Positions 28,952 to 29,169 of a stretch of DNA of 64,000 nt are shown here, one piece after another (the first letter of the stretch is position 1; each line of letters begins with the position of its first letter). A program made the position numbers and the translations under genes. This stretch comes from Austwickia chelonae NBRC 105200 (GTDB lineage Bacteria > Actinomycetota > Actinomycetes > Actinomycetales > Dermatophilaceae). The DNA lies in contig NZ_BAGZ01000005.1 in the NCBI RefSeq assembly GCF_000298175.1, forward strand, positions 248,001-312,000, read 5' to 3'. Under the pieces are notes generated by a model. The model worked only from the letters and a program-made list of their open reading frames with translations, searched no databases and was not told the origin of the DNA.

Positions 28952-29033
28952 CGCTCTTCGTCCTCGCTCGCTCGTGCGGATGCGTGCGACACCTCATGTC
29001 GCCACCGACGCCGGGTACGACCTTCTGACATGG

Positions 29034-29055
29034 AAAAAGCCCCCTCCCAGGAGGC
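29034..29055 (-). terminator. attenuator terminator in leuS leader
   Basis: On the minus strand GCCTCC pairs with GGGGGC (one G-U) around loop TGGGA, followed directly by TTTTT. This is one of very few T-tailed terminators in the window and lies about 80 nt before the leuS start, within the leader rather than after a gene. Confidence 0.8.
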
Positions 29056-29057
29056 CG

Positions 29058-29089
29058 GCCGCGTCGAGACCCGGGCAAGTCGACGCGGC
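29058..29089 (-). promoter_or_regulatory. attenuator hairpin 1 (pause/anti-antiterminator)
   Basis: A perfect 10-bp stem, GCCGCGTCGA/TCGACGCGGC with a 12-nt loop, begins at the last base of the leader-peptide stop codon. A ribosome stalled on the Leu codons would cover its 5' arm, changing the downstream fold. Confidence 0.75.
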
Positions 29090-29115
29090 TACCTAAGGAG
29101 CAGCAGGCTACGCAT
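29089..29115 (-). CDS. leuS leader peptide MRSLLLLR
   Basis: An eight-residue ORF with four consecutive leucine codons (CTG CTG CTC CTT) immediately before the stop and a stable hairpin. A -10 element TAGCCT (29122-29127) ends 6 nt before its ATG and there is no Shine-Dalgarno, so it is probably translated from a leaderless transcript. The arrangement leader peptide, hairpin, T-tailed terminator, leuS is that of ribosome-mediated attenuation. Confidence 0.75.
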   Translation of the reverse strand: MRSLLLLR

Positions 29116-29169
29116 GCACCCAGGCTAGCGCAGTCGTCCTGGGGCAGACACGCGCCTTTCCCCCTGTGG

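Follow-up and report, generated by a model that had tools for sequence, protein, structure and literature searches.

A putative transcription attenuator with a probably leaderless leader peptide upstream of leuS in Austwickia chelonae and related Actinobacteria

The leu and trp attenuators of enterobacteria combine a ribosome stall at control codons with competing hairpins and a U-tailed terminator. Their leader peptides have a ribosome-binding site, and their targets are biosynthetic genes. Cys-rich leaderless short ORFs of mycobacteria were reportedly presented as an amino-acid sensor in the title of a 2020 paper by Canestrari et al.; the amino acid is said to be cysteine, and an intrinsic terminator is said to be absent. 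Classical attenuators before leuS were predicted in Streptomyces avermitilis and S. coelicolor in 2005 (Seliverstov et al., PMC1262725). The peptide LeuL2 of S. lividans, MRAVRLLLSEPR, located before leuS, was described in 2021 as 'transcribed leaderless' on the basis of RNA-seq data, and its ORF is followed by a hairpin and uridines (PMC8079986). The LEU element before actinobacterial leuA is described as a pseudoknot in which Leu codons pair with the Shine-Dalgarno box of leuA (PMC1262725). Going by the available parts of these two papers, attenuation of leuS and its leaderless form are not new in Actinobacteria, and an earlier note on the present DNA, which had called a leaderless leader peptide for leuS notable, was anticipated by them. 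The available passages of PMC2965389, PMC13236596 and PMC4833913 contain no mention of leuS. In a few further papers, among them PMC9413887, PMC3896937 and PMC11995493, leuS occurs together with the terms leader peptide or attenuation.

The leader analysed here lies in a window of 64,000 nucleotides from A. chelonae NBRC 105200, in which all positions are counted. Its parts, listed below in the order of transcription, are on the minus strand, as is leuS (28951-26012), the putatively controlled gene, which encodes a leucyl-tRNA synthetase of 979 aa (TIGR00396, 863.9 bits at a curated cut-off of 548.4). A CTGCG box at 29133-29129, recognized from letter counts in 158 leaders, stands 1 nt (C) before the -10 element TAGCCT at 29127-29122 and forms with it an extended -10-like TGCGNTANNNT. 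After six nucleotides, GGGTGC, the leader ORF begins (29115-29089). It reads ATG CGT AGC CTG CTG CTC CTT AGG TAG, and its eight codons, four of them consecutive Leu codons, encode the probably leaderless peptide MRSLLLLR*. The last Leu codon, CTT (29097-29095), is the likely main control codon according to codon counts across leaders. Hairpin 1 is a perfect 10-bp helix with a 12-nt loop, which covaries in a 45-row alignment. Its 5' arm GCCGCGTCGA (region 1, 29089-29080) begins in the stop codon, the G of TAG being the first paired base, and its 3' arm is TCGACGCGGC (region 2, 29067-29058). Within its loop, CCCGGG (29075-29070) is a candidate antiterminator partner of CCTGGG at 29051-29046, as predicted by folding. 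The terminator hairpin GCCTCCT-GGG-AGGGGGC (29055-29039, stem 29055-29049 / 29045-29039) was found in the sequence and by pattern scan, and its position is conserved in alignment A1. It is followed by the U-tract TTTTT (29038-29034), 82 nt before the leuS ATG. A short ORF with codons for the cognate amino acid is thus followed by an intrinsic terminator. The eight-codon ORF with its four consecutive Leu codons, the perfect 10-bp hairpin from the stop codon, the T-tailed terminator ahead of leuS and the TAGCCT ending 6 nt before the leader ATG had been listed in the earlier note, and all are present. The pattern scan gave 2 terminator-like sites at the leader and 0.1 in shuffles; the folding energy of the whole leader was not below that of shuffled sequence (z -0.13). 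The upstream neighbour on the same strand, a YhhN-family gene (PF07947, 29170-29808), ends 42 nt before the -10 element, and the leader terminator may also end its transcript.

The window leader resembles the enterobacterial leu and trp attenuators in its predicted stall, competing hairpins and U-tailed terminator; it differs in probably lacking their leader ribosome-binding site and in its target, which is not biosynthetic. With the Cys-rich ORFs reported from mycobacteria it would share a leaderless short ORF as putative amino-acid sensor, and the amino acid differs. As far as the available descriptions go, it agrees with the Streptomyces leuS attenuator (leuL2) in the gene, in a Leu-rich leader peptide (leaderless in S. 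lividans) and in the terminator. By alignment the two are the same RNA element, CTT-N6-CCGYG ... CRCGGC ... terminator, and one covariance model, whose training rows include Streptomyces-type leaders, covers both. The peptide MRAVRLLLSEPR recurs identically in 20 of 166 leaders. The window peptide is shortened, with TAG before CCG; GAG or GGG takes that place in most of the Streptomyces leaders seen, which end in PR*. The window terminator loop is GGG and not CTGYGY. With the LEU element of leuA the window leader shares a Leu-rich leader peptide ahead of a leucine gene (PMC1262725, available part).

LeuS was found in 149/149 genomes of the window's family. From these, 137 loci were fetched; 12 genomes were left out because leuS was truncated at a contig end or lay very close to one, G053 being omitted without a stated reason. 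A further actinobacterial sample comprised the best 80 of at least 593 leuS loci and was uneven, 37 of the 80 being titled Streptomyces. Up to 500 nt before 217 leuS starts were searched (one of 218 loci, L206, had no LeuS start, and the window's own locus was counted twice). A short ORF with LLL occurred in 142 of the 217 regions, or 141/216 without the window's duplicate, and in 139 of the 142 a TANNNT stood 5-9 nt ahead of a start. The reverse-complement control gave 4/217 and, with TANNNT, 0/217. A relaxed rule yielded 166 distinct leaders; since it required a -10 at 5-9 nt (three leaders were kept by hand), the -10 count within this set is partly by construction, and a separate count was made without selecting on the -10. 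The common pattern, with exceptions, is CTN-CTN-CTT-NNN-NNG-CCGYGY ... CRCGGC ... CCCCTC-CTGYGY-GAGGGG-T-run.

A covariance model was trained on 45 of the 166 leaders (80% identity cut), 7 from the actinobacterial sample and 38 from family loci. It found the leader in 59 of the best 80 of at least 593 actinobacterial loci, the same 59 as the ORF search, and in 109/137 family loci; the training rows, 7 of the 59 and 38 of the 109, match by construction. Among the best 80 the leader was present in 37/37 Streptomyces loci and in 22/43 others. It was present in all four drawn genomes of the window's genus (L082, L083, L084 and L106). The leader was not found in 21 of the best 80 actinobacterial loci and 28/137 family loci. 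No leader was seen in the fetched loci of Nocardia, Corynebacterium, Williamsia, Bifidobacterium, Brevibacterium, Cellulomonas, Actinotalea, Aeromicrobium, Actinomyces, Arcanobacterium, Boudabousia, Schaalia and two MAGs. In the organism's own genome the model had one significant match (E 1.7e-13), the next being at 0.69. Among 296 phylum genomes searched with stricter filters, the own genome included, 31 matched at E 0.01 or better, and all 16 matches below E 1e-8, the window's included, were upstream of leuS. The weak matches L223, L246 and L248 had no evident leader and were treated as chance. At three of the 16, L237, L238 and L239, the gene behind the leuS leader encodes a distant type of LeuS, with 34-40% identity to the window's LeuS over the matched stretch; here the leader may have been retained, or gained anew, upon replacement of the synthetase. 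A plasmid search with leuS gave one partial match, which was irrelevant.

The check called for in the earlier note, comparison of the Leu codons among relatives, came out in its favour: Leu run, hairpin, terminator and -10 spacing are kept in most relatives examined. The leader is real and functional-looking. With these results, control of leuS of the kind known from Streptomyces reaches most of the family members examined and several other genera. They also suggest that these bacteria stably keep the sensor peptide at the very start of the RNA, and that this is no peculiarity of a single species. The aligned set of leaders allows the sensing codon, the promoter box and the hairpins to be tested.

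Of the 161 leaders that could be anchored (5 of the 166 could not), 157 have CTT as their last Leu codon, as do 44 of 45 non-redundant ones. The sole non-CTT row among the 45 is L189, which is mis-anchored by two codons; its true codon is CTG by eye. The two Leu codons preceding CTT are a mixture of CTG, CTC and CTT. CTT is rare: its share of the 899 Leu codons counted in 15 long window ORFs is 4.4%, and leuS uses it for 7 of its 79 Leu codons. Leu-poor leaders such as MASQQQRLIGPR and MAVTVHLPGPR still retain it. The simplest reading is that the rare CTT serves as a sensitive control codon. That CTT is kept for pairing is less likely, given that G-rich partners would be matched better by CTC. 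The codon before CCG is CAG, GAG or GGG in 112/161 leaders, giving peptide ends such as QPR*, EPR* and GPR*, and in 29/166 leaders, those of the window's genus and some others, it is TAG and ends the ORF. The C-terminal residues of the leader peptide thus seem to follow from the RNA hairpin. A hairpin beginning at the stop codon, as in the window, is one variant of a structure that in other leaders takes in the final codons of the ORF.

Hairpin 1 overlaps the end of the ORF and is conserved by compensatory change. In the 45-row alignment 96.4% of the cells of both helices were paired. Two-sided changes were seen in 27 cells compared with 8.8 in shuffles, none of 500 shuffles reaching as many, and all 27 were in hairpin 1; helix 2 showed no two-sided change in this alignment. 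Pairing was lost when the alignment was slid by 1-3 columns, a test biased towards the structure, since that alignment had also served to derive it. Two of the five covariation measures, those less sensitive to relatedness, were not clearly above shuffles: pairs with two-sided change numbered 4 vs 2.5 (reached by 47/500 shuffles) and further pair types 13 vs 11.2 (reached by 50/500). The base of hairpin 1, GCCG/CGGC, hardly varies and is uninformative on pairing, and one inner pair is non-standard in 11/45 rows. One pair is C-G in 146 and U-A in 9 of 155 leaders, all of which fit a pattern that allows just C/U and A/G at that pair; 11 of the 166 leaders do not fit it. The parts of the leader, their conservation and the covariation of hairpin 1 can, at the level of sequence, be read directly from these alignments.

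In the count made without selection on the -10, with the duplicate removed, TANNNT stood 6 or 7 nt before the start of 133/148 LLL ORFs vs 28/713 other short ORFs of the same regions. The 158 leaders with TANNNT at 6 or 7 nt share TGCG-N-TANNNT, the letters occurring as T 140, G 153, C 140 and G 158; TGCG had not been used to select them. The full TGCG is present in 128/158 leaders and in 33/42 non-redundant ones, where the single letters number 37, 39, 38 and 42 of 42. The C ahead of it is weaker (127/158; 26/42 non-redundant). No conserved -35 was seen upstream of the leaders, and no promoter with a -35 was found at the window leader. TGCG-N-TANNNT resembles an extended -10; its conservation at this single locus in many genera could reflect an extended -10 or a regulator site. 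In the own genome, the leuS leader was the only match to the pattern CTGCGNTANNNTN{6,7}RTG (reversed-pattern control 2). A wider class of TGCG promoters was not found there: CTGCG gave 1 match (control 2), TGCG 2 (control 9) and the variant TGTG 0 (control 1), and no leader was seen at the second TGCG match (L220). The -10 lies six nucleotides before the ATG, and this spacing makes the A of that ATG the most likely first nucleotide of the leader RNA. The published leaderless transcription of the homologous S. lividans leader supports such a start by analogy.

Ribosome-mediated transcription attenuation of leuS with a leaderless leader peptide, as put forward in the earlier note, is the best explanation of these data and very probably the right one: the Leu run, the hairpin, the terminator and the -10 spacing are conserved, and hairpin 1 covaries. 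A 70S ribosome would begin right at the RNA's 5' end and translate MRSLLLLR. With ample charged tRNA-Leu it would get to the stop codon and leave, so that regions 1 and 2 form hairpin 1; the terminator would then form and RNA polymerase would halt ahead of leuS. When charged tRNA-Leu is scarce, the ribosome would stall at the Leu codons, chiefly CTT, and cover the 5' arm of hairpin 1 at its base. The freed RNA would form short-lived pairs with the 5' arm or the loop of the nascent terminator, through CCCGGG and CCTGGG in the window and through RCGCGG and CUGYGY in relatives, and transcription would enter leuS. Stalling, antitermination and the direction in which leuS responds are inferred.

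Folding was done on the 153 of 166 leaders that have a T-rich tail (13 were excluded), the set used for the alignment, in which a GC hairpin with such a tail follows hairpin 1. Each was folded both free and under a ribosome footprint whose edge lay 12 nt from the first base of the A-site codon. In nascent RNA, in which the 3' arm of the terminator is not yet made, at least 4 pairs between regions 1-2 and the terminator 5' arm or loop were formed by 7/153 unblocked leaders, by 109/153 with the ribosome at CTT and by 127/153 with the ribosome at the stop codon, counts that are without a shuffle control. In these predictions hairpin 1 keeps the pairing of regions 1-2 away from the terminator, as an attenuator requires. 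A ribosome at the stop codon also frees this pairing, so fast release of the ribosome must be assumed. In finished RNA with the ribosome at CTT blocked out, the terminator still folded in 150/153 leaders, and antitermination would therefore have to be kinetic. In unblocked finished RNA the terminator formed in 144/153. The window's own leader is among the 9 without it; its best unblocked fold pairs the Leu region with the terminator region, which counts against the simple scheme. With the ribosome at CTT, nascent window RNA was predicted to pair CCCGGG (29075-29070) with CCTGGG (29051-29046); in the closest congener, L083, the letters are identical and this pairing was not predicted. In the Streptomyces leader L013, GCGCGG was predicted to pair with CUGUGC of the terminator loop. 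When nine leaders were viewed singly, a clear antiterminator was seen in two (L082 and L013), the other seven having weaker or other pairings, and inner pairs of hairpin 1 often survived the ribosome block.

Among the 108 leaders whose terminator has the standard stem, the loop reads CTGYGY in 92, a conservation not expected of a terminator loop. This loop is partly complementary to the 3' arm of hairpin 1, moderately better than shuffles, as on average 25% of loops of the same letters pair equally well. The register CRCG:YGYG fits 8 of the 9 leaders with an A in region 2 (Fisher p 0.0008, from related sequences that are not independent and with 42 leaders without a YGYGAG loop left out). The register RCGCGG:CUGYGY fits Streptomyces, yet it fits only 3 of the 9 A-containing leaders. 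With loop and region 2 just moderately more complementary than shuffled loops, and with the folding results above, the antiterminator, on which the earlier note was silent, is only a proposal and the weak point of the model. Pairing of the Leu codons with the 3' arm of the terminator was set aside by eye as an antiterminator, because it predicts termination on stalling, because it misfits Streptomyces CTTCTGCTT and because CTC would outpair the conserved CTT. Contrary to this rejection, the best unblocked fold of the window leader contains the Leu-codon pairing and no terminator, and this counterevidence stands. From sources seen in part, with subscription journals scarcely covered, our impression is that the near-invariant CTT, the TGCG box without a -35 and the CTGYGY loop are apparently undescribed.

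Three other explanations were weighed. The terminator could be an ordinary one that stops transcripts of the YhhN-family gene, whose end lies so close upstream on the same strand, the Leu-rich ORF having arisen by chance. In many genera the region before leuS keeps the ORF, CTT, the -10 spacing and hairpin 1, which argues strongly against this as the sole explanation, as does the frequency of Leu-run ORFs in the reverse-complement control (4/217), and we consider it very improbable. Still less credit is due to a T-box or another leader that binds tRNA or a metabolite. T-boxes do precede ileS in several Actinobacteria (PMC1262725, available part), but the conserved part of the present leader is a translated Leu run, and Rfam gave no match at the gathering threshold in the window; the matches near the leader were weak and unrelated, and the T-box model was unmatched.

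The leader peptide might instead control translation of leuS, or act through Rho and not through an intrinsic terminator. In the cys leaders of Actinobacteria an intrinsic terminator is not obvious, and a role of Rho has been suggested (PMC1262725, available part); in some relatives, four T in a row do not occur within 110 nt of the leader ORF, and the predicted antiterminator is weak. Against this stand the GC hairpin and T-rich tail that follow hairpin 1 in the aligned leaders, 153 of 166 having been kept for their tail, and the TTTTT of the window, so that control of translation or through Rho appears improbable. Within the preferred reading, transcription attenuation, it is possible though doubtful that all of the following hold together: that the leuS leaders are one ancient RNA element, that the near-invariant rare CTT is essentially their single sensor, that a dedicated promoter, the TGCG extended -10, sets the 5' end of the RNA at the start codon, and that the freed 3' arm of hairpin 1 captures the loop of the nascent terminator and not its stem.

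Leaders of related type were seen at other genes. Among 14 weaker-matching loci examined, 2 lie before 2-isopropylmalate synthase and at least 8 before acetolactate synthase; the identity of four of the downstream proteins was checked, and the rest were judged by eye. At L240 and L242 a Leu-rich leader, with its hairpin and terminator, stands ahead of the gene for 2-isopropylmalate synthase (leuA). In Actinomycetota outside the window's class, sister leaders stand before acetolactate synthase-like genes at L241, L243, L244, L245, L247, L249, L251 and L252. They read CTC GTA CTT ATT/ATC-xxx-TAG or a close variant (Leu-Val-Leu-Ile), for example CTC GTA CTT ATT ACC TAG, and also carry a hairpin and a terminator.
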